Shown here in pieces: positions 15,019 to 61,500 of a DNA stretch of 64,000 bases. Below the pieces are notes generated by a model, which was given only the letters and a program-made list of their open reading frames with translations, was not told the origin of the DNA and searched no databases. This DNA is from Phorcus lineatus (Eukaryota > Mollusca > Gastropoda > Trochida > Trochidae). Made by a program: the position numbers and the translations under genes. Within the stretch, counting starts at the first letter, position 1; every line of letters starts with the position of its first letter. The DNA lies in NCBI GenBank assembly GCA_921293015.1, contig OV121094.1, forward strand, positions 36,516,054-36,580,053. The letters run 5' to 3'.

Positions 15019-16416
15019 AACTCTTCAAAAAAAGAAACTTGACATTCATGCCAAATTGATTTTTTCGAAAGGGGTCAATTTTTCTCATGATACATACCTG
15101 TAATTTAAAGAAAGGCTTGCTCAAAAGTGTAAATTTACCCCAAAAAATGGCCCAAAAAGTTTACGTTGTAGTTTACGTCCAAATGCATTTTCTGCCAAAG
15201 CACGTGCAGCATGGGATCATGAAGGTTTACATGCATACACGTCTGCTTCATTCACGTTCATTCAGTCTACACAACATCAGTACAGCGACCTGAAGAATGC
15301 CAAGACTGAACAGAGCGCAACGCAACAACGCTATTGGCAGACTGCAAGCAGGAGCGACGCAGCGAGATGTTGCAACACACTTTGGCGTGTCCAGACAGAC
15401 GATCTCTTCATTGTGGACCCGTTTCAACACCCGAAACAGCGTTGATGATAGGCCAAGGTCAGGCAGACCAAGGGTGACTACTCGGGCCCAAGATCGGTAC
15501 ATCCGACTGCTCCACCCTCGGGAACGCACCAGGACAGCAACGTCAACAACAACAAAGATACCAGGCCTGCGTCGAATTAACGCAATGTCATCTGGCGGAA
15601 CGTCTCCAGTGGTGTCAACAGAGGATGAGATGGGCACGTGCAAGGTGGAGAACCGTTCTCTTGACTGATGAGTCCCGTTTTCTGCTTCGACGAAGTGATG
15701 GACGAGCACGCGTATACCGACGTCGTGGAGAACGTTATGCTGCCAAGTGTTTACAGGAGGTTGTCCCATTTGGAGGTGGGAGTGTCATGGTGTGGGCCGG
15801 GATTCGTCATGGTTATAGAACACCCCTTGTGCATATGTTGTGGGTAACCTCACAGGAGTACGGTATAGGGACTTGATCCTACAGCCTTACGTTATTCCTC
15901 ACGTCAACGTCCAAGGTGGTCTCTTTTAGAAGGACAATGCTCGACCACATAATGCACGTGTTTGTCAAGACTTTTTACAGCGTAAGAATATCCAGACATT
16001 GCCATGGCCAGCCAGGTCACCAGATTTGTCACCAATTGAGCATCTCTTTGACGAACTGGATCGACGCGTGCGCAGTAGGAATCCACCACCACAAACACTT
16101 CCAGGACTTCTTGCAGCACGAATGGCAGAACATTCCACAGGCTGTGATAGACAACCTAATTGCATCCATGGGTCGTCGGTGCCAAGCAATAATCAATGAC
16201 AATGGTGGCCATACCCGATACTGACATTTGTGCACCCCTGTGATGTTGAAACACTTGTGCACCTGTGCATTTCCAGATCATGCTTATTCTGAACAAAATT
16301 TACTGAACAGAGATCTTCAAACAGCGTTTTAGTTTTCATTTCAATGTTTATCTTGCATCTGTGGTCTTTATATTGAACTTTGAAAGTCAGTGTCAAGTTT
16401 CTTTTTTTGGAGAGTT
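15019..16416 (+). mobile_element. Tc1/mariner-superfamily transposon (Tc1-like), inactive
   Basis: Terminal inverted repeats of 26 bp are visible. The left end is AACTCTTCAAAAAAAGAAAC followed by TTGACA (15019-15044). The right end (16391-16416) is its reverse complement with one mismatch. Each end is bordered by TA (15017-15018 and 16417-16418), the target site of this superfamily. The 1.4-kb length is usual for the group. The single gene inside is a broken transposase (separate entry). The ends and coding remnant mark a fairly recent but non-autonomous copy. Confidence 0.95.
15297..16224 (+). pseudogene. Tc1-like DD34E transposase pseudogene
   Basis: The protein would bind the TIRs and catalyse cut-and-paste transposition. 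From ATG 15297 the N-terminal helix-turn-helix is intact (RDVATHFGVSRQTISSLW), followed by the GRPR hinge (RPRSGRPR) and the start of the second DNA-binding half. About 30 or more residues between the second HTH and the catalytic core appear deleted near 15590, with a frame change by 15625. The core reads VLLTDESRF (first Asp), GGGSVMVWAGI, then KDNARPHNARV (second Asp) and SPDLSPIEH (Glu). There are 34 residues between the second Asp and the Glu, the Tc1 signature. A TAG interrupts the line just before the second Asp (about 15926). Another frameshift near 16090 puts the C-terminus (MGRRCQAIINDNGGHTRY) in a different frame. All catalytic residues survive, but the reading frame does not. Confidence 0.93.
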
Positions 16417-16418
16417 TA

Positions 16419-18989
<2,571 letters not shown>

Positions 18990-19839
18990 TCGACAGCGTT
19001 TTTTCGAACCAACTTTGTTTTATCAATATTTACTCGTAGTCCTGAAAAACGTTCAAACGGGTTTAGAGTGTTTAAAACTGCTTGTAGACAAGTTTTTGTG
19101 CCATCCAGCATCATAGATGTGTCGTCTGAAAACTGAGCTAGCAGACGTTTAGTGGTACCAATCTTTATCCCCTTGATAAGTTTATTACCTTTAATCAATC
19201 TGGTTAATATTTCGGAACATATAATGAAATATATACATGGTGAAATTGGGTCCACTTGGCGAAAGCCCCGACTAAGCCTGAAAAAGGAACTTGCGAAACC
19301 GTTGACTAATACACATGATTCAGAGTTTTCGTACAGTATTCTAATCTATTTACGAACTGACGGACCAATATTAAAGTAGGTTAAAGCATTTTGAATAAGA
19401 CCCCAATCCAGAGAATCAAAAGCGTTTTCGAAATCTATAAGCATTAACAGACCAGGTATTTGGTAAGTATCAACATATTCCATAACATCATACACTTGTC
19501 TTGTTACTTCTACCATATATATCTACCTTTAATAAAACCCTTCTGTTCTTCGCTATGAAACAAAGCGAGAGTAGGTTTTATCCTCTGAGCTATAGCCGAT
19601 GAAGCAAGTTTTAGGTAATATTGAGTAATGATATTGGTCTCCAATTTTTAAAAAATTTCTTTGGCTAATCCTCTTTTGGAATACATGTAATAATTCCTTG
19701 CACTTGCTTAACTGAGAAGGCGTTATTTCTAAAAGCAAAATTTAATGATTTGATAAGGTATTTATTTAGATCACGCCAAAAGAAACAAATACTGCGGAAA
19801 AACCATCTGGGCCGGGGCTTTTATCGTTTATAATACGTT
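18990..19839 (-). pseudogene. LINE reverse transcriptase domain with motifs A-C
   Basis: The RT copies element RNA at the nicked target. Its blocks appear in order on the minus strand. SPGPDGFS is at about 19800-19825, NWRPISLLN at 19619-19645, and SSAIAQRIKPTL just after a one-base deletion. QKGFIKGRY follows near 19530. Motif A is DFENAFDS (19412-19435), and motif B is GFRQVDPISP, with Val where Gly is usual. Motif C is FSDDT at about 19119-19133, with Ser in place of the usual Ala of F/YADD. KINxxKTK-like VNIDKTK closes the palm. At least three frame changes and several stops occur. Both catalytic Asp pairs are still legible. Confidence 0.93.
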
Positions 19840-20539
19840 TTAAGGTTTTAAGGCATTGACGACTTCATCATAAGTAAGTTCTCCTTCCGTAATTTCTGCC
19901 AAATCGTCAATTATTTTAGAATGTTCCTTTGGTAATAAATCATCTAAATTAATTTGGGAGATATGTTTTTCAAAATAAAGGGTTTCGTAAAATGTTTTTG
20001 TCTCACTTAAGATATCAGAAATGTTTGAAATAGTTTTTCCAGAGGTTTTTTCATATTGAATAAATGATTTCTTAAGAAAGTTTCTCAATTCCAAATTCAA
20101 AATGAATTTCGTTGGTTTTTCCCCTTTTTCAATCCATTTAGCTTTGGCTCTAATAAAACACCCCCTAGCCTTGATTTCGCTAATTGGCTCCAATTCGGAA
20201 TTGACTTTTTCCATTTCTTCTAATTACTTTTCTTTGTCCTCAAGTGTTTCTGATTCTTCAAGTTCGATCGTCAAAACTGAAAGGATTTCATTTAATTGTT
20301 TTTCTTTTTTTTTCTCTATTCTTTTTTTTACTACTGGAGTAATATATGGTTTTACCTCTTACTAAACCATTAATATGGTTTCCCATAAAAGATGATCCGA
20401 AATTTTAAAACCTTCTTCATCTATATATTCCTCACAAATTTCCTAATCGTATCTTTAACTAGTTTTACATAGTCCGGATCATTTAACAGAGAATTATTAA
20501 ACTTACAAAAACCTTTACCGCGTACAATCTCGTTTAGTT
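19840..20539 (-). pseudogene. LINE linker between endonuclease and reverse transcriptase
   Basis: A basic, coiled-coil-like segment rich in Lys and Glu (about 20215-20360) leads into ARGCFIRAKAKWIEKGEKPT at about 20100-20165. The next residues, KFILNLELRN, complete the familiar pre-RT block of L1/Tx1 elements. A stop near 20222 and a frame change near 20365 interrupt it. The 124-codon frame at 19840-20214 covers the second half and ends as the RT fingers begin. Confidence 0.85.
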
Positions 20540-21060
20540 GCAGACTCATTTCTATTATAGAATGGTCTGAATTAAAGCCAGAGTCAATTTCGGTATATTC
20601 TATTGATGAAAGGAGATTATGCAAAACAAAGGAAATAATCAAGACGTGATTGTTTCAATGGGGTAGGTTGTCGCCAAGTATATATTTTTTCATAAGGATT
20701 GGATAATCTCCATGGATCTTTCAGATCATACAATTCAATAAGATCATCTATTTTTGCTCTCACTTTAGGGTTGTTTACATGTTTGTAATTAAATTGATCA
20801 AAAATTGGATTTAAAGCACAATTCCAATCCCCACAGATAATTAAAAATTCCGACTCTGATTTATTTCATGTCTACAATTCGTTCGTAGAATTTGGGTGTG
20901 TTTTCGTTAGGGCCATACAAGTTTAAAAGAAGATATTCACTATCATCAATTTCAACATCTAAACCCTTTAAGTTCTTAAAATCTTCTGGCAAGTTATGTC
21001 TTAAACTAAACATGCCATACTTTCGTTAATATTCCATGAATATAAATAACATAATGTTGC
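20540..21060 (-). pseudogene. LINE endonuclease domain (APE-like), internally deleted
   Basis: This domain nicks target DNA to prime reverse transcription. The expected first strand (YSWNIN) appears at about 21045-21060 and then the frame breaks. The next recognisable block, LLLNLYGPNENTPKFYERI, begins about 20945, so most of the first half is missing. GDWN, the catalytic Asp/Asn block, is at 20822-20836. The segment DLIELYDLKDPWR lies at 20705-20745. The terminal SDHSIIEM with the catalytic His is at about 20550-20580. Stops and frameshifts separate the blocks. Loss of the early catalytic Glu segment would abolish activity even if the frame were intact. Confidence 0.88.
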
Positions 21061-23880: not shown

Positions 23881-24300
23881 AAGGAATATCTGTACTGATA
23901 TCAACAAATCTCTATTCTTTTCAGTATACTCTGATTCAATCAAGTACAAATTAATGCTAATATGATTAATTAATGTACATATAATTTTTTTCCATGATCA
24001 ATTGCATTGGTCAAGTGCAGGTTTATAAGTCTTGTTTAAGATTATACTTGAAGACATGTATGTATGAAGAACTGACTTTTAAAGATCTGAAAAAGGAATA
24101 TCTGTACTGATATTAACAAATCTCTATTCTTTTCAGTATAATCTGATTCAATTTGATCAAGTACAAATTAATGCTAATATTATTAATTAATGTACATATG
24201 ATTCTTTTCCATGATCAATTGCATTGATCAAGCGCAGGTTTATAAGTCTTGTTTAAGAGTATTCTTGAAGACATGTATGTATGAAATGACTTTTAAAGAC
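23881..24300. repeat. Tandem duplication of a 212-bp segment
   Basis: AAGGAATATCTGTACTGATA at 23881 recurs at 24093, an offset of 212 bp. The following roughly 200 bp repeat with scattered substitutions and small indels, including TTCATGCTAATAT-type and GCAGGTTTATAAGTCTTG segments. This is one simple segmental tandem duplication, old enough to have diverged slightly. No coding content. Confidence 0.92.
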
Positions 24301-24612
24301 CTGGAAAGACCTAAAAACATCGAATTAAACCATAAGCAATAAAAAGAATTGGCTTATTTGGTTCACCTCCTGTTTGTTGACTTGAATGTATTTGTTGTGT
24401 TCTAGATAGCCTATATCACTCATATAGTAAACTATGATAATCAACCTAGCTCGTCGAAGCACGACCATCAATCAATGTTACCGTATATGTTCCAATGTAT
24501 GAGAGCTATAATTATTCTAATTTAGGTCAATTCTATTCTCTTTTTATTCAAACACTACATATTGAGACAAAGATGATTACTCAATGGGATATTCTTTTGT
24601 TAAGGGCAAAAC

Positions 24613-25983: not shown

Positions 25984-26140
25984 TATTGCAGGGTAAAGGA
26001 TCGCAAACCTGGTGGGCTACACATTGCGGTAAACCTGCGAGCAGCCGCTTGAACTACCGACCCACGGGTGATGGAATCAGTGAAGCATTGCACCCAAACC
26101 TAATTGCATGTAGACTAGTTCTCTGCTGCAGAGAAGGTTT
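25984..26140 (-). mobile_element. 5'-truncated copy of the tRNA-derived SINE family
   Basis: The run TTATTGCAGGG, CATTGCGGTAAACCTGCGAG, GCATTGCACCCAAACCTAA and GTTCTCTGCTGCAGA matches, in order, the body of the SINE at 46952-47271. The tRNA-like head is absent and similarity stops near 26140. On the minus strand this is a 5' truncation, which is common for retroposed copies. The 68-codon frame at 25986-26192 lies in it and is not a gene. Confidence 0.8.
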
Positions 26141-34322: not shown

Positions 34323-34327
34323 TAACG

Positions 34328-34662
34328 TGATGCTGAAGATGATGTGATGCTGAAGATGATTTGATGCTGAAGATTATATGATGCTGAAGATGATGTGATG
34401 CCGAAAATGATATGATGCTGAAAATGATTTGATGCTGAAGATTATATGATGCTGAAGATGATGTGATGCCGAAAATGATATGATGCTGAAAATGAGGTGA
34501 TGCTGAAAATTAAATGATTTTGAAAATAATGTAATGCTGAAGATAGTTTGATGGTGAAGATGATATCATGGTAAAGATTATGTGATGCTGAATATTATAT
34601 GATGCTGAAGATGATGTGATGCTGAAGATGATGTGATGCTGACGATTATGTGATGCTGAAGA
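34328..34662. repeat. 17-bp minisatellite, first block
   Basis: Tandem units of 17 bp on the theme GATGCTGAAGATGATGT, with variants ending ATTTT, TATAT or AATGA. The register is clear from the regular recurrence of GATGCTGAA. A 17-bp period does not keep a reading frame, so the minus-strand frame at 34510-34716 is not a gene. The block stops where an inserted repeat begins at about 34663. Confidence 0.95.
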
Positions 34663-34955
34663 TAATAATAATAATGATAGTCTTCTTATAACGCCCTGAA
34701 TCCATTCACAGTACATGCTCTAAGCGCACAATTTAGAGGAGATGATGTGGAGTCAGTGAAGACACTTTTGAAAAGATAGGTTTTGAGTTGATGTTTAAAG
34801 GAGGCAAATGTTTCACACTCTTTTAAAAATTGGGGCAGATTGTTCCAGGCTTTTGTCGCTCAGTAGGCAAATGTTCTCTCTCCAAAACGTGTCTTTTTAA
34901 CCATGAAGCAAGGTTTTGTTTTGCGAACGTACAGTTCTAAATGGTGAGTAGATTT
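34663..34955 (-). mobile_element. SINE-like repeat inserted in the minisatellite
   Basis: A non-minisatellite segment of about 290 bp starts with ATAATAATAATAATG. Next to this lies a module with TAACGCC...ACATGCTCTAAGCGCAC, matching the 3' module of the SINE at 23529-23847. A body containing GAAAAGATAGGTTTTGAGTT follows. The minisatellite resumes after about 34955. On the minus strand the ATT run would be the 3' tail. The body differs from the 23.5-kb copy but resembles that at 38086-38240. Confidence 0.6.
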
Positions 34956-35645
34956 TGAAGATGATAATGATGCTGAATAGCCTGTTATGCTGAAGATTAT
35001 ATGATTCTGAAAATGATGTGATGCTGAAGTTGATGTGATGCCGAAGATGATGTGATGCTGAAGATTATATATTTCTGAAAATGATATGATGCTGAAGATG
35101 ATGTGATGCTGAAGATGGTATGATGCTGAAGATAATGATATGCTGAAGATTATGTTATGCTAAAGATTATGTTATGTTGAAGATTATTTGATTCCGAAAA
35201 TGTTTTGATGCTGAAGATGATATAATGCTGATGCTGATGTGATTTTAAAGATTATATGATTCTGAAAAAGATGTGATGCTGAATATGATGTGATGCTGAT
35301 GATGTGATGCTGATGATGATGTGATGCTGAAGACGATGTGATGCTAAAGATGATGTGATGCTGAAGATGATATGATGCTGAAGATGATGTGATGCTGATT
35401 TTTTTTGTTATGCTGAAGATTATGTTATGCTGGAGATTATATGATGGTAAAGATTATGTTACGCTGAAGATTATATGATTATAAAAATGATATGATGAAG
35501 ATGATATGATGCTGAAGATGATATCATGGTGAAGATGATGTGATGATGACGATTATGTGATGCTGAAAATGATGTGATGATGACGATTATGTTATGCTGA
35601 AGATTATGTGATGCCGAAGACGATGTGATGCTGAAGATGATGTGA
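34956..35645. repeat. 17-bp minisatellite, second block
   Basis: The GATGCTGAAGATGATGT theme continues for about 690 bp with more decay than the first block, including partial units, a T8 run near 35400 and a sub-block of ATGATGACGATTATG. The 73-codon minus-strand frame at 35471-35692 is a by-product. Confidence 0.95.
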
Positions 35646-39436: not shown

Positions 39437-39684
39437 CGTATTTGTATCGCGGTTGATAGTATTATTGCAGGGAGACCACCATTGTGGCTATGCATTGCGG
39501 TGAAACAAGCGAGCATCGGCTGGAATAAGCGAGTGGCGGTACATTTAGTGTAGCATTGCACCAATATCTGACTGTGTGTGGAACAGTTCTCTACTGCAGA
39601 CAAAGTTTTCGAGCTCTTGGCGGGATTCGAACCACGGATCCTCAGCCGAACGCGCTAACCACTGCGCTAGACCGCCCCTCCCCC
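39437..39684 (-). mobile_element. tRNA-derived SINE, second copy
   Basis: Collinear with the 46952-47271 SINE: ATCGCGG, TAGTATTATTGCAGGGAG, GTGGCTATGCATTGCGGTGA, GTTCTCTACTGCAG and GGCGGGATTCGAACCACGGA. On the minus strand the tRNA-like head has B box GGTTCGAATCC and A-box-like TAGCGCAGTGGTTAGCGCG. A short ACATCA on both sides (39430-39436, 39685-39690) may be a target duplication, but it is too short to be sure. The 3' tail module seen at 46.96 kb is truncated here. The 61-codon frame at 39368-39553 overlaps it and is not a gene. Confidence 0.85.
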
Positions 39685-46951: not shown

Positions 46952-47271
46952 GAGGAAAGGTGAGGGGAGTTGGGGTTTAACACCGCTTTCAAGATTATTT
47001 CACTTATATCGCGGCTGCTAGTATTATTGCAGGGAGAAAGCCCGCAACACTATAGTGGCTATGCATTGCGGTGAAACCTGCGAGCATCGGCTGGAACTAG
47101 CGAACCATGAGTGGTACTGCGCTGAAATTCAGTGTAGCATTGCACCCAAACCTGACTGCGTGTAGAACAGTTCTCTACTGCAGGCAAAGTTGCCGAGCCC
47201 CTGGCGGGATTCGAACCACGGACCTCCTGATCCGAAGCCGAACGCGATAACCACTGCGCTATCCCGCCCCC
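46952..47271 (-). mobile_element. Full-length tRNA-derived SINE with exact 12-bp TSD
   Basis: The exact TGAAACAATGGT lies on both sides (46940-46951 and 47272-47283). On the minus strand the element starts with a tRNA-like head: A-box-like TAGCGCAGTGGTTATCGCG, a possible TCG anticodon-loop remnant, and B box GGTTCGAATCC. It is most like tRNA-Arg by eye. The body contains CATTGCGGTGAAACCTGCGA on the plus strand. The 3' end is a GTTAAACCCCAACTC module (plus strand GAGTTGGGGTTTAAC at about 46967-46981). RNA polymerase III would transcribe it and a LINE would mobilise it. Truncated relatives are at 25984-26140 and 39437-39684. Confidence 0.93.
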
Positions 47272-53200: not shown

Positions 53201-53461
53201 TTCAAACACGTTTTGGTTGAAAAGTTACAAAACATTTAGAAATCCATATTTGAATTAAACAAACTTCTGTTACGCTGCTTTGATGTGATTAAAGATAGTT
53301 TGTCTATAACCTTCCACAGCATTTATATACATAAACCTGATACATTCTGGTTGCTCTTTCATTGCCAGCATATGTGATGATTTTCAAGATAACATATGGG
53401 GTAAACATGTTGATGAACATCAACTAGGGGACAAAATAAATTTCGTTTTGTTACACAATCC
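47284..53461. other. Long AT-rich stretch with one exon candidate
   Basis: No mobile element is recognised over about 6 kb. Open frames up to 102 codons (51332-51640, minus) have no visible domain. The Tyr/Asn-rich frame at 49946-50152 is a low-complexity product of AT-rich codons. A short imperfect inverted repeat (AAAATTTGCACAATTCTTT and partner) sits at 51722-51779. Confidence 0.45.
50539..50662 (+). other. Candidate 124-bp internal exon
   Basis: The segment is noticeably GC-richer than its flanks. It is bounded by TTGTGCTGTTTTAG (acceptor, to 50538) and CAG|GTATTATG (donor, 50663). The third frame reads RRFGNPHHRILETLTTVLTN, then SLPTRLSSDSMETIQAIKYS, without a stop. The first frame is also open (VEGLETHIIGFWKLSP...). 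The two open frames leave the phase uncertain. No family is recognised. An alternative is a fragment of a repeat. Confidence 0.35.
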
Positions 53462-53479
53462 CCGTGTCTATGTTCCATG

Positions 53480-53640
53480 CAATCTGGGAATGATCACAAT
53501 CTGCAGATTGTTCGCTCACAATCTGCAGATTGTTCGAACAATCTAGGAATATTTTTCATTCCTAGATTGTTTAAACAATCTGCAGATTGTGAGACCTGAA
53601 CAATCTGGGAATGATCACAATCTGGGAATTTGCTTGTTTG
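53480..53640. repeat. Left palindrome cluster of the foldback
   Basis: ACAATCTGCAGATTGT, a perfect 16-bp palindrome, occurs three times, together with ACAATCTAGGAAT...ATTCCTAGATTGT and CACAATCTGGGAAT half-sites. The half-site CACAATCTG is also part of every unit in the adjoining array. Such clustering at an element end suggests protein-binding sites or a cruciform, by inference. Confidence 0.9.
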
Positions 53641-53689
53641 TAGAATATTTTGCATTGTAAAATGAGCTTATTTAGGTTTTTATTTTTGT

Positions 53690-55214
53690 TTATTAGATTG
53701 TGACAGGTTCATAGCTCGCCTTTATGTCAAATTGAGGGAGTATAGGGGTCGATTCCTAGATTGTGAAGGGCTAACATATTGTCGTTATGTCAAACTGTGA
53801 GGGTGTATGGGTCGATTCTCAGATTGTGAAGGGCTTACAGCTCGCCTATATAACATACTGAGGGAGTATTGGGATCGATTCCTTGATTGTGAAGGGCTCA
53901 CAGATCGCCTATGTGTCAACCTGAGGGAGTATAGGGGGTATAGGGATCTATTCTCGGATTGTGAAGGGCTCACAGCTCGCCTATATGTTAAACTGAGGTA
54001 GTATATAGATCGATTCCTAGATTGTGTAGGCCTCATAGTTCACCTTTATTCAAACTTAGAGGGAGGGTATAGGAGTCGATTCTCAGATTATGAAGGGCTC
54101 ACAGCTCGCCTTTATGTCAAACTGAGGAGAAGAGGGGTCGATACTCAGATTGTGAAGGGCTCATAGCTCGTCATTTTGTCAAACGGAGAGGGTAGAGGGG
54201 TCGATTCTCAGATTGTGAAGGGCTCACAGCTTGCCTTTATGTCAAACTGAGGAGATGAGGGGTCGATTCTCAGATTGTGAAGGGCTCACAGCTCGCCTTT
54301 ATGTCAAACTGAGGAGAAGAGGGGTCGATTCTCAGATTGTGAAGGGCTCATAGCTCGCCTTTATGTCAAACTGCGGGAGTATTCGGGTCGATTCCTAGAC
54401 TGTGAAGGGGTTACAGATCGTTATTTTGTCAAACGGAGAGGATAGAGGGGTCGATTCTCAGATTGTGAAGGGCTCACAGCTCGCCTTTATGTCAAACTGC
54501 GGGAGTATTCGGGTCGATTCCTAGATTGTGAAGGGCTCTCAGCTCGTCATTTTGTCAAACGGAGAGGATAGAGGGGTCGATTCTCAGATTGTGAAGGGCT
54601 CAAAGCTCGTCATTTTGTCAAACGGAGAGGGTAGAGGGGTCGATTCTCAGATTGTGAAGGGCTCACAGCTTGCCTTTATGTCAAACTGAGGAGAAGAGGG
54701 GTCGATTCTCAGATTGTGAAGGGCTCACAGCTCGTCTTTATGTCAAACTGCGGGAGTAAATGGGTCTCTTTTCAGATTGTGAAGGGCTCACAGCTCTCAT
54801 TTATTTGAACTGAGGGAGTATAGGAGTCGATTCCTAGATTGTTAAGCGCTCACAGCTCTCCTATATGTTAAACTGAGGTAGTATGTGGATTGATTCCTAC
54901 TTTGTGAAGGCCTCATAGCTCATCTTTATGTCAAACTGAGAATGTAAAGGAGTCGATTCTCAAATTGTGAAGGGGTTAAAGCCCACCTATATGTCAAACC
55001 GAGGGAGTATACGGGTCGATTCCTAGATTGTGAAGCTCTCATAGTTTGCCTTTTTTTCAAACTGGGAGGGTATTGGAGCGCGTCTGTATGTCAAACTGAG
55101 GGAGTATAGGGGTCTATTCTAAGATTGTGAAGGGCTCAGATATCGCCATTATGTGAAACTGAGGGAGTATAGGAGTCGATTCCTAGATTGTGAAGGGCAT
55201 TGCGCTTGTCTTTG
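53690..55214 (+). repeat. Left satellite arm, about two dozen 62-65-bp units
   Basis: The unit is GGGTCGATTCTCAGATTGTG, then AAGGGCTCACAGCTCGCC, then TTTATGTCAAACTGAGG plus a variable GAGTATAG/AGAAGAG. The period is 62 bp where adjacent units were measured (54271 to 54333). Variants alternate (CTTTATGTCAAACTG versus CATTTTGTCAAACGG), giving a 124-bp dimer pattern in 54360-54660. The frames at 53785-54036 (-) and 53807-54001 (+) are tandem 21-residue repeats created by the array and are not genes. Confidence 0.95.
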
Positions 55215-56283
55215 TTTGTTGATTTCGCTTGTATGGGGTTCAATTCACATATTGTGAATATGTGGAGGTAGAAAACTAAATTTGTATGTCGATTCTGCGA
55301 TTTCAGATTTTCATTAATCATAGTTTGCAGTGACCCGTATAACACTGTCTGGAGGGTGTTACTATTTATGTAGAAGTAAGAATTAGTTCTTATATGTGTA
55401 AAAAGTTTGCGTATGGAAATCAATAAATAACAATTCATTATGAAAAGTAAACTTATTATCTGAAAAGTTAATTACACTGAAATTTAATTCTTCACTCTCG
55501 CTTATTCAACTTAAGTTAGGTTAATTGAGCATAATTATACTATCTGTATCATCACAAAACACTAATCTCCTTTGGTATGAATTACTTGCATAGACACTTA
55601 CACTTACAGGGTACAATGAAGGAAATAGTCTCGTGATGCTAAAAAGAGTTTCAAACATCAAAGACAACAAATTCTGATTCTTATATTATGTTCATTATGG
55701 AAACTTGATAACTGTTACCTTTTCCCCTAATTTTCTTCCTGGATCGTGAGATTGAAAGTTTTTTATACGAAAGATGCAAAAATCGGAAAGTTACTTAATC
55801 TTTTGAGTTTGTATATAAACAGCTTTTAAATATATGAATTTATAAAATTTATAATACTCGAACAGTTAGCATTTTGTGTTGTCGTGAATAATGAGCCCAG
55901 ATGTCTAGCTGGGTCTGCTTATCAAAGCAACGTGTCACTGTGTCGCGTCACTACTCAGACATGCGCGTAAATTTGCGTACAATCACATTAACTTCCTCTC
56001 TATAATTTGATGTTTATCATGGGGCAAATACTTATGCAATAATGAATTGTCTGGAGTAAAATGTTTAATTGCTCTTCGGTCACACTATGGTCAACATTTT
56101 GACACATATTTTTCTTTAACGTTTTTAATAGTTTCCGTTATATCGGTTTGTGAATTTTACAAAGAAATGTTTTATTTGATTTATTTGTTATCTGTTCATG
56201 ATTCAATATTGTAAGAAAAAATAAAATAAAATCCATATTAAGCATTCTCTACCTTTGAATTTGGTACAGATGTAATTAAAAAG
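55215..56283. other. Loop of the foldback, unrecognised part
   Basis: About 1.1 kb with ordinary AT-rich composition. The 100-codon minus-strand frame at 55136-55438 starts in the loop and runs into the array. It has no recognisable domain. I see no transposase motif. Confidence 0.4.
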
Positions 56284-56637
56284 CTATAAAAATCGGTTGG
56301 GATTATTTATGAAATGATACACAGATATTATTAGGGATTCGTTAGCACTCTGTGACAAGGATTTGTCGCCGCTCAAGGTAGATTTTAATATTATATCGTT
56401 TTTTAAAAAGTATTGATTTGATCGGAATCTATCATATAGTGGGCATTCAAAGAAATAATGAAAGGGATCCTCCCGAATGTTTCCACAAGAACAGGCGGGA
56501 TTTACTAACAACAGTAAGTGGACTTGCTTTGCGTAGTATATTTTCAATATGATGCTGCCATTTTCCATTTTCATCTGTGTAAACATGTTTTTATACCCCC
56601 GTATATCACGTAAAGTCGACCTATGAGCCCTTAACAA
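56284..56637 (-). pseudogene. LINE C-terminal fragment in the foldback loop
   Basis: A 117-codon open segment contains LLLLVNPACSCGN, then IREDPFHYFFECPLYDRFRS, and ends SVYHFINNPNRFL plus a stop. The C-x-C-G ... H-Y-F-F-x-C-P-L-Y ... R pattern is the C-terminal zinc-knuckle-like motif of LINE polyproteins. The N-R-F ending near the stop is also typical. The fragment's 5' end coincides with the first unit of the right satellite arm at about 56638. It may be a 5'-truncated insertion or the original partner sequence at a rearrangement breakpoint. Confidence 0.75.
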
Positions 56638-58350
56638 TCTGCGAATAGACTCTTATACCCTCTCAGTTTGATAAATAGCCAGCTATGAGCCCTTCCCAAT
56701 CTGAGACTCCTCTACCCTCTCAGTTTCATATATAGGCGAGCTATAAGCCATTCATAATCTAAGAATTGACTCCTATACCCTCTCAGTCTAAATATAGATT
56801 AACTGTTAGCCCTTCACAATCTGGGAATCAACACCTATACCCCCTCAGTTTGACATATAAGCGAGTTGTGAGCTCTTCACAATCTGAGAATCGACCTCTA
56901 TATACTCCGTCAGTTTGATTTGTAGGCGAGCTATGAGCCCTTCACAATCTGAGAATCGGCCCCTATACTCCCTCAGTTTGGCATAAAGACAAGCTATGAG
57001 CCCTTCACAATCTGAGAATCGATCCCTATACTCCGTCAGTTTGACATATAGGCGAGTTGTGAGCCCTTCACAATCTAGGAATCGGCCCCTATACTCCCTC
57101 AGTTTGACATAAAGACGAGCTAGGAGCCCTTCACAATCTGAGAAACGATCCCCATACTCCGTCAGTTTGACATATAGGCGAGTTGTGAGCCCTTTACAAT
57201 CTGAGAATTGATCCCCATACTCCGTCAGTTTGACATAAAGACGAGCTAGGAGCCCTTCACAATCTGAGAAACGATCCCCATGCTCCGTCAGTTTGACATA
57301 TAGGCGAGTTGTGAGCCCTTCACAATCTGAAAATCGACTGCTATACTCTCTCAGTTTAAATAAAGGTGAGCTGTGAGCCCTTCACAATCTGGGAATCGAC
57401 CCCTATACCCCCTCAGTTTGACATGAAGACGAGCTATAAGCCCTTCAAAATCTGAGAATCGATCCCTATACTCCGTCAGTGTGACATATAGGCGAGTCGT
57501 GAGCCCTTCACAATCTGAGAATTGACCCCTATGCCCCCTCAGTTTGACAAAAAGACGAGCTAGGAGCCCTTCACAATCTGAGAATCGATCCCTATACTCC
57601 GTCAGTTTGACATATAGGCGAGTTGTGAACCCTTCACAATCTGAGAATCGACTGCTATACCCTCTCAGTTTAAATAAAGATGAGTTGTGAGCCCTTCACC
57701 ATCTGGGAATCGACCCCTATACCCCCTCAGTTTGACATAAAGACGAGCTATGAGCCCTTCATAATCTGAGAATCGATCCCTATACTCCGTCAGTTTGACA
57801 TATAGGCAAAATGTGAGCCCTTCACAATCTGAGAATCGACTCCTAGATACCCTCTCAGTTTCATATATAGGTGAGCTGTAAGCCCTTCACAATCTGAGAA
57901 TTGACCCCTATGCTACCTCAGTTGGACATAAAGCCGATCTGTGGGCCTTTCACAATCTGAGAATCGACGGCTATACCCTCTCAGTTTAAAAAAAGGTGAG
58001 CCGTGAGCCCTTCATAATCTGGGAATCGGCCCCTATACCAGCTCATTTTGACATAAAGACGAGCTATGAGCCCTTCACAAACTGAGAATCGATCCCGATA
58101 CTCCGTCAGTTTGACATGTAGGCGAAATGTGAGCCCTTCACAATCTGAGAATCGACTCCTATATACCCTCTCGGTTTAAATAAAGGTGAGCTATGAGCCC
58201 TTCACAATCTAGGAGTCAACCCTTACATCCCCTAAGCTTGACATAAAGACGAGCTGAATGTCCTTCACAATCTGGGAATCGGCCCCCATACCCCCTCATT
58301 TTGAGAAAGAGACAAGCTGATTGCTCATCACAATCTAGGAATCGATCTAG
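56638..58350 (-). repeat. Right satellite arm, about 26 inverted units with higher-order pattern
   Basis: Units read CACAATCTGAGAATCGA, then CCCCTATACCCTCTCAG, then TTTGACATATAGGCGAGCTG plus TGAGCCCTT. This is the reverse complement of the left-arm unit. Alternating A (CGTCAGTTTGACATATAGGC) and B (CCTCAGTTTGACATAAAGAC) types are clear. A third type with CTCTCAGTTTAAATAAAG recurs at 57355, 57669 and 57985 (spacings 314 and 316 bp, five units), then at 58175 (190 bp, three units). That is a higher-order repeat, as in satellite DNA. Confidence 0.95.
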
Positions 58351-58419
58351 GAATCGCTAAATAGAAAAACCTTAATAAGCTAAATAATTCCCATTCTATA
58401 ATGATGAAAATACTAATAA

Positions 58420-58572
58420 AACACACATTCCCAGATTGTGATCATTCCCAGATTGTTCAGGTCGCACAATCTGCAGATTGTTTAAACAATCTAGGAATTC
58501 CTAGATTGTGAGCAAACAATCTGCAGATTGTTCGAACAATCTGCAGATTGTGATATACCCCAGATTGTTCGT
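58420..58572. repeat. Right palindrome cluster of the foldback
   Basis: Inverted counterpart of 53480-53640, with CACAATCTGCAGATTGT copies, CTAGGAATTCCTAG and TTCCCAGATTGTGATCATTC. The order of sub-motifs mirrors the left cluster, except that one palindrome pair is swapped. Confidence 0.9.
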
Positions 58573-61500
58573 AACATCTACACGTCATATCACACAAATA
58601 AACATTGTTCTATTTAATCCACCCACACATTCTTGATTTCTTCCTGGTCACCAGACAAGACATAATCAAAATGGTTGGAAACATTAATTGGTACAAATTT
58701 GAAATGTTAGAACTAAGAAATATTGCAAAATGGAAACAATAGATTTATCAAACGTGGTTAAAAGCCATCGTAGAAACTGGTAAACCGTCACTATTAATGC
58801 AGTGTCAGACATGGCAGAGTGTGAACAATAAGCTGTTTTCAGGTTTGCAAATATCTATCCAAAACCAAGAGATCACAAGAGACCATAACCATAAGTGTAC
58901 ATACGTACATGTACGTATTATATGAATGAATAGGTGACACATTGTTAAGTTTTATGCCAAAATAACAAAAGGTAAGTAAATAATGTTGAGAAGTGTTCTC
59001 ATATACCATTTTTCATTTCAATTTGAAAACAACAATTCACTATAAAAAAGGAAAACTACAAAGAACAGCTCTTATATTAACGCTTATTATGAACACGAAC
59101 ACATAACCTTTATTATTGCCATTAAGTAGTTAGTAGTTAGTTAAGTTTTTCCCAAACAAGAAAAACGTTTTAAGTTTGAGAAAGTTGACAAAGTATGAAT
59201 CATTTGTAAAATATTTAAGCGAAATATATTAATCACCCGGAAGTGCTATATCAAGCGAATGTCAAACTCTCATATAAAAGGTGTAAGCTGAAAAGAAATA
59301 ACTCTTACACAATCTTTAAGCTCTTTTACATTCCCTTTCAAATGAGCATTTAAAATTTATGTTTAACTCGAAGTGAAACCATGATATTGAAAAACATTAT
59401 GCAATTCTGGTGTGTATTTTGTGGAAAACAGTCATCATAAAAAAACGCATTCATAACTGAAATGTCAAGAAACCTTACACTATTCTATGTTTGTTTCTGT
59501 TTGGGGGTAAGTTAACATTATTTTCTTTCCAGAGATATCAAATTGTGGCTACCACGTTTTCTGGTGAATGTTCTGGTGAATTTTAAATTTAATTTATTTT
59601 TTAAAAATAGACTTTGTCACCTATGTAATGATGTTTCATTTCATGTACTTAGCTTTAAGGAAACAAATCGACATTACAGAAAAATATCAATACTGGCAAT
59701 ATAGAAATCGGATCCCAAATATTCCCGCTGGCAATAATGTTATTAAATTTCAAACCCTAAAGCCAATAAAATTGACTTTGTAAAAGACGGATAGCAATAT
59801 CAGCAGTGTAAAAAGCTATTCAAGTTGTGACAATAATTTTGAATAATGTAAAAGGTACTTATTAAATTAAAACTGTTTAAAAGAGTATGTACGTGAACAT
59901 GAACAGCTGTTCTCACAAAAGCAACGATAATGTTAAAAATTAAAATCTTTTCTGTTCTTTGATACTCCTATAACAAGGGATAATTGGGTTCAGTTATGAG
60001 GTGTTTTACCCCCAAAAGATGATGCATTTCGAATAAACAGCGACACTGTTATGAAGGTTCAGTGATAGATGAATCGAACAAAAACATTGATAAATACAAA
60101 TTAAGAAATAAGCAATAAATTTTCGAATCTTTTTACAGTCTTTTCTTGTTTTTCCCTGTATATTTACATGTTTAATTTTTCTAAAAAATATAGGTTGTTT
60201 CTCTTATGTTAGGAGTGTGATTTGTTAAAGTAATATACATGTAAGCACACAATCTCTCAAAATGGTACGCATGTAAAAGAAAATTGAAAGTACCTATTTT
60301 AACTTTTGATCTATCACTTTGTTTGTTACAGCCAGCGATAATAAAGGTTATTTCTTATATGCTAAAGAAATACAGATTCGTTCCCTCTCATATGAAATCT
60401 TACCATAAAGGCATAAATCTTAACACTTGAAAAATAATTCTCATAATTAGGTTCATTCCAATACGTGAGTCACCACAATGTCTCGGTCATATTTTAAAGC
60501 AAATATCTAGGTGATATATTAAAGTAAATGTCTTGTGTCAGTGACAGCTTGATATTCATGGCGATAGATGCATAGTTGTTTTTCAGCCAAAGGAATGTTG
60601 TTATTCAAGGAGTCTGAAGCAGAATTTGTTTAAACCCCTTGGTCTTTCGTCCGGGTACTGCTGTCGTAGCTGCACGGGACACTAATAGGAATGTTGAAAA
60701 ATATTTTGGAAACATGCATCACATTTCTTAGACGAATTAATTAGGTTTATATAGAAAATTGACACATGAACTGTGAAATAGATGACTCATGCTAATAAGA
60801 CGCTATAATTTAATTATACCGTGAGTGTTTGAAGACCTAATCTCATTAGCTACCCTACACACTAAAATATCAAACGACTGATTGTGATGTATATTGTTTT
60901 TGAGTTGCAATTTAAGTTGGAATTCAGCCTGTAATGTACAGATGCAGAGAGGGTAATGCTTTACAGATGTTCATCATTTTCTTCAAAAAGATTTGTTTCT
61001 GTCCTGTGGTTTGAGGTTTTCTTTTCTGATCTGATCTATTCAAACTTTTATCTCAATTGTAGGATTAATCGTAAAAGCAAAGAAACGCCGTTGTTTCAAA
61101 GCCACAAAATGTACCTAGTAAGATGTAATTATGAAAACCCGAAGGCTGAATCTTTGATGGTACATAAGAATTGCTTTCATGTCGAATTCAGATTTTTTAA
61201 AAAGTGTTAATGGCTAATAAAAGTCGAAAACAATACAAGGTTACTATTGGTTTGCTCTTCGAATTCATTACCCATCCAAATGAAGTATGTATCTTCAAAT
61301 AAACAATATAAAATATATTTTTAACAAATCTGTCGTATGACAATATCTCACTACAGATATAGCTTAATATATAAAATCAGATTGAGCTACCTCTGTGGGG
61401 AAAGACTGTAGACGGTCTTTTTGAAATCAGGAACTTTATTGATGTCTGCTGTGTAAATTATTGCCATTAGACTATACTCGATAGCACCGCATGTACTCAT

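Follow-up and report, generated by a model that had tools for sequence, protein, structure and literature searches.

A probable foldback-like DNA transposon with palindrome-rich caps and satellite-like arms in the gastropod Phorcus lineatus

Background

Foldback-type transposons with tandem repeats in their inverted ends have been described before. Tetris, a foldback transposon of Drosophila virilis, is made of flanking, tandem-repeat and inner domains with a non-coding middle; a 37-bp stretch is common to its flanking domain and its tandem units, and its repeats grew into a satellite (PMC4079207). The tandem repeats in the long ends of Galileo, of the P superfamily, contain sites bound by its THAP domain, and the repeated sites were proposed to give specificity (PMC3688188). 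Mcmar, a mariner-like element of Meloidogyne chitwoodi, has inverted ends of direct repeats and palindromes (cited in PMC3169594). Here we describe an element of about 5.1 kb in a stretch of 64,000 bp of the Phorcus lineatus genome (contig OV121094.1, positions 36,516,054 to 36,580,053; hereafter the window), which had been picked out in an earlier, sequence-only reading as a giant foldback with satellite-style arms. We consider it probable that it is a non-autonomous foldback-like DNA transposon, the end-binding site of which would have been amplified into satellite-like arms in a way that resembles Tetris and Galileo.

Results and discussion

Architecture of the element

On both sides of a loop the element shows the same order, colinear and mirrored: a cap, an AT-rich linker and a tandem array (Table 1). 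The repeat finder TRF returned a period of 63 at 53695-55073 (21.8 copies) and at 56611-58304 (27.0 copies), and the units of one array are the reverse complement of those of the other, as the sequence-only reading had it when it described two arrays of a 62-65-bp unit in opposite orientation. It was also right about the order cap, array, loop, array, cap, with inverted, palindrome-rich caps (157 bp left, 154 bp right), and overlooked the AT-rich linker between cap and array. The inverted-repeat geometry that it proposed holds for the mirrored arms and caps and for the overall length of about 5.1 kb, but the loop measures about 1.3 kb (1.4 kb claimed) and the arms have unequal numbers of units and reach no more than about 81% identity in inverted order (1245/1528 for the arms proper), so that they can pair only in slipped registers. 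Over the whole half-elements (1791 and 1977 bp) the inverted identity is 1435/1733; all these values are identical over aligned bases, with gaps left out.

The element thus has long, multi-domain inverted ends with internal tandem repeats, a feature of foldback-like elements, and the colinear order of cap, linker and array on the two sides, which is that of true composite inverted ends, leads us to favour a foldback-type element. The caps are the best kept part: 137 of 143 aligned bases (96%) are identical in inverted order, as against 47 of 58 in the linkers (Fisher p 0.0015), which would fit caps that were constrained in past rounds of movement. In the alignment of 53496-53544 with 58503-58551 the short linkers between the palindromes are ordered differently in the two caps, and this rearrangement suggests that palindrome modules may have been exchanged or recombined.

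A motif common to caps and arm units

Each cap contains 11 ACAATCT half-sites in a mirrored layout, exact in 21 of the 22 cases (one left copy is mismatched) and mostly paired head to head, either as the 16-bp palindrome ACAATCTGCAGATTGT or as ACAATCTAGGAAT opposite its complement. At up to two mismatches ACAATCTGCAGATTGT occurs six times in the window, with all copies exact and all of them in the caps (expected 0.07; at most 1 in 100 shuffles). Perfect palindromes of 16 bp or more are likewise concentrated there: of 14 centres in the window (overlapping palindromes were counted by centre) the caps contain 11, whereas random sequence with the dinucleotides of the window has a mean of 0.016 per 320 bp; the longest is a perfect palindrome of 36 bp in the right cap.

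The new observation is that a cap motif, ACAATCTRRGAAT, recurs in the conserved block of the arm units. All 38 of its copies in the window lie within the element, and 8 of these are in the caps. We cut 51 units from the arrays; ACAATCTRRGAAT was found in 29 of these and ACAATCT was exact in 36. Two of three odd units (two fragments of one split unit and one very diverged edge unit) were omitted from the conservation count, leaving 49, and all three from the identity and nearest-relative counts given below, leaving 48; a 97-bp interval of the left arm is not among the units cut. Across the 49 aligned units, mean conservation is 0.959 in the ACAATCT columns and 0.855 in the rest, and the best ungapped 16-base match between the unit consensus and the left cap is 14/16. 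The exact half-sites of the arms (17 left, 21 right) all point outward, with none opposed, and are mostly spaced at 62-63 bp.

Such an accumulation of half-sites might also be expected of an array that binds a host protein, for instance an element based on ACAATCT with a role in replication, chromatin or regulation, and the dense mirrored half-sites, the confinement of all 38 longer motifs to the element and the apparent constraint on the caps would suit it. However, no gene context was recognised and the plan of cap, linker, array and loop is that of foldback transposons, and we therefore consider a host-protein array improbable.

Matches in other sequences were few. In public collections, which are not meant for animal genomes, the 16-bp palindrome was found in nine stretches of viral contigs (one palindrome each) and a degenerate cap pattern in four stretches (one match each), all judged to be chance, while the arm patterns gave none in viral contigs and none in prokaryote genomes. 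Five stretches of cap and unit sequence had no full-text match among open-licence papers, which is a weak negative.

History of the arms

For 42 of the 48 units the nearest relative lies in the same arm, a number that none of 5000 label shuffles reached (mean 23.6, maximum 37). Mean unit identity is 0.805 within the right arm, 0.784 within the left arm and 0.785 between the arms, the difference being reached by 0.4% of the shuffles. In both arms similarity is highest among the central units and declines towards the edges: the identity to the nearest unit of the same arm is 0.853, 0.943 and 0.860 for the inner quarter, centre and outer quarter of the left arm, and 0.901, 0.936 and 0.876 for those of the right arm. 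The two arms are homogenised largely apart. This pattern points to arms of common origin, each of which may later have expanded on its own, outward from its centre, in the manner of a satellite.

The history of the arms bears directly on the integrity of the assembly. A mirror-image layout is the classic mark of a hairpin or chimeric read fused with its reverse complement. Such an artefact would give near-identical arms, whereas those found here are about 81% identical, unequal in unit number and homogenised to different unit types. Because the arms are far from identical and were homogenised largely apart, we regard an assembly artefact as very improbable.

Loop and flanks

According to the sequence-only reading the loop bears a LINE (long interspersed nuclear element), and this found no support. 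What remains of it is an open frame of 103 amino acids at 56284-56595 (-) with, by eye, a C-x-C-x8-H-x4-C spacing, the C-C-H-C pattern behind that proposal. At E<=1 neither Pfam nor the PDB sequences gave a match to the frame; viral contigs yielded no relative of it, and it did not align with one further LINE fragment from the window. Compared with the rest of the window by blastn, the loop gave no match at 1e-3, and among the short repeats considered as a candidate LINE target-site duplication the best is 9 bp long and lies in low-complexity sequence. Transposases were also looked for: a P-type transposase with a THAP domain (P superfamily) was found neither in this frame nor in the other loop-edge frame, and a MULE transposase (Mutator/Phantom) had no Pfam match at E<=1 in the sole loop frame scanned, 56284-56595.

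In the flanks there is no 9-bp repeat of the kind that features in Mutator/Phantom elements, neither exact nor with one mismatch. The pair TTACACAA / TCACACAA (53451-53458 / 58590-58597, one mismatch) was considered as a target-site duplication and rejected, such pairs being within chance. About 17 bp just outside the caps show a possible weak inverted similarity (11/17, empirical p 0.009), and the true ends of the element are therefore uncertain.

Several points weigh against the interpretation as a foldback-like transposon with an amplified end-binding site. The element is known only from the single copy in the window, no search of the host genome for others having been made, and its loop yielded no transposase (frame 56284-56595 by Pfam at E<=1, plus the other loop-edge frame). 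No exact target-site duplication of 8-10 bp was found in the flanks near the caps, and the near matches, five eight-mer pairs with one mismatch, are at chance level (18% of 200 random placements reach that number); decay or uncertain ends could hide such a duplication. With respect to the motif, the ACAATCT core ranks only fourth of the 63 seven-base windows for unit conservation, and the conserved block runs upstream to CCCTTCACAATCT, of which only the part TCACAATCT is found in the caps. Lastly, the mean unit identities within and between arms barely differ.

Flanks without a target-site duplication would also be expected if the locus were a non-mobile chromosomal structure, i.e. a field of 63-bp satellite, part of which was inverted or copied in inverted orientation, with the palindrome clusters as its edges. 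The arms do behave as a locally homogenised satellite, and satellite junctions at palindromes were reported for the bivalve satellite phBglII400 (PMC5139131). Nevertheless, cap and linker lie outside the array and are mirrored colinearly at both outer sides, the caps being the best kept sequence of all, and an inversion internal to a satellite would not put matched unique sequence at both outer edges. We therefore consider a non-mobile satellite field unlikely, though less so than a host-protein array, and retain the foldback-like transposon as the probable explanation.

A possible mechanism

For a foldback-like transposon the following scheme can be proposed. The ACAATCT half-site would be the target of a transposase whose gene lies elsewhere. 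In the caps, the palindrome clusters, as paired sites, would seat or nucleate a multimeric complex at each end; the units of the arms would serve as secondary binding sites and make end recognition more specific or more efficient. Once the inverted arrangement was in place, each arm would have lengthened through its own unequal crossing-over or slippage. At 10.5 bp per turn a 63-bp unit corresponds to about six helical turns, and the sites could then face one side of the DNA; this arithmetic is only suggestive.

A further and more speculative step, which we put forward as a possibility that is rather doubtful at present, is that the transposon end itself is a satellite of binding sites: selection for more transposase half-sites would have filled the tips with palindromes before multiplying the half-site, some six helical turns apart, into kilobase arms that would now evolve as satellite DNA. 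If so, there would be a direct route from the recognition site of an enzyme to a satellite. Should the shared motif indeed be the transposase site, then a single locus would tie the recognition sequence of the tip to the unit of a satellite-like array, and would provide a tangible case for testing why foldback elements develop tandem arms and how some satellites begin; should it not be, the locus would be another foldback-like element.

Feature coordinates and other repeats of the window

Table 1. Parts of the foldback-like element, in window coordinates
Feature	Position	Strand	Remarks
Tentative outward extension, left inverted end (CGTGT..ATGTT)	53463..53479	+	11/17, p 0.009
Left cap	53480..53636	+	11 ACAATCT half-sites (10 exact; outermost with one mismatch, start 53479), mostly head-to-head palindromes ACAATCTGCAGATTGT and ACAATCTAGGAAT..ATTCCTAGATTGT
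Left AT-rich linker, cap to array	53637..53700	+	Homologous to right linker, 47/58
Left arm	53701..55270	-	About 24 units, mostly 62-63 bp; outward half-site (AGATTGT on + strand), 17 exact, 0 opposed
Loop	55271..56595	.	1.3 kb; without recognised coding content
Right arm	56596..58345	+	About 28 units, mostly 62-63 bp; higher-order repeats inside (TRF period 314); outward half-site, 21 exact, 0 opposed
Right AT-rich linker	58346..58418	-	Homologous to left linker
Right cap	58419..58572	-	11 exact ACAATCT half-sites, mirrored layout; 36-bp perfect palindrome 58516-58551
Tentative outward extension, right inverted end	58568..58584	-	11/17, p 0.009

Elsewhere the window contains other mobile and repetitive sequences. 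A broken Tc1/mariner-like transposase lies at 15294-16224 (+), with helix-turn-helix and DDE_3 Pfam matches in separate frames, and a broken LINE at 17780-20865 (-), with a reverse transcriptase match at 18986-19345 and weak zf-RVT and endonuclease matches below the cut-off. In our judgement these Tc1-like and LINE remnants, together with the base composition, accord with an animal host. Simple and tandem repeats include a perfect (TC)67 microsatellite (17616-17749), a 217-bp unit present twice in tandem (23881-24307) and a 17-bp minisatellite in two blocks (34327-34663 and 34956-35645) with a strong skew of G over C. A dispersed repeat occurs at 26077-26139, 39543-39638 and 47127-47222, with GGCGGGATTCGAACCACGGA in two copies; ARAGORN found no tRNA. 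We take GGCGGGATTCGAACCACGGA to resemble a tRNA B box, and the repeat is perhaps a SINE (short interspersed nuclear element).

Comparison with known systems

Arrays of short, satellite-like repeats within mobile elements are also found in the Helentron or pearl-type elements of bivalves (CvA, Cg170 and others; PMC5139131, PMC8268682, PMC11136912, PMC7492417). These have one central array, short subterminal inverted repeats and no long inverted ends, and the two opposed arrays within the long inverted ends of the present element set it apart from this group.

Galileo has in common with our element the long inverted ends with internal tandem repeats, which in Galileo hold extra transposase-binding sites. 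Its P-type transposase is known and binding was measured, with a footprint some 70 bp from the end plus two other sites (PMC3688188), whereas here binding is proposed from the sequence and the motif recurs dozens of times. Tm1, a Mutator/Phantom foldback element of root-knot nematodes, likewise has composite inverted ends with a variable number of tandem repeats, and terminal motifs that do not mirror one another as inverted copies; it differs in its 13-15-bp repeats, its 9-bp target-site duplications and its known related transposase (PMC3169594). The ends of Mcmar are 355 bp long, as against about 1.8-2.0 kb here, and Mcmar has a mariner transposase (cited in PMC3169594). Since such ends arose in the Mutator (Tm1) and mariner (Mcmar) lineages as well as in the P-type Galileo (PMC3169594), the structure names a look-alike group and not a lineage.

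Tetris, compared by architecture only, has the same outer flanking domain followed by a tandem-repeat domain in long inverted ends, a non-coding middle and a non-autonomous nature; in both elements the outer domain and the repeat have a stretch in common (37 bp in Tetris, ACAATCTRRGAAT here) and the repeat number is unequal between the ends. The Tetris units are about 220 bp long, against 63 bp here, its target-site duplications of 8-10 bp have no counterpart found here, its excerpted description mentions no palindrome clusters, and satellite expansion was demonstrated for Tetris (PMC4079207). The sequence-only reading did not recognise the combination of features at this locus and thought that it might represent an undescribed family that gives rise to satellite DNA too. 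As a whole the combination is indeed unusual, but the architecture is already known, as a foldback element with tandem-repeat inverted ends that fed a satellite (Tetris, PMC4079207) and ends of direct repeats and palindromes (Mcmar, cited in PMC3169594) have both been published.

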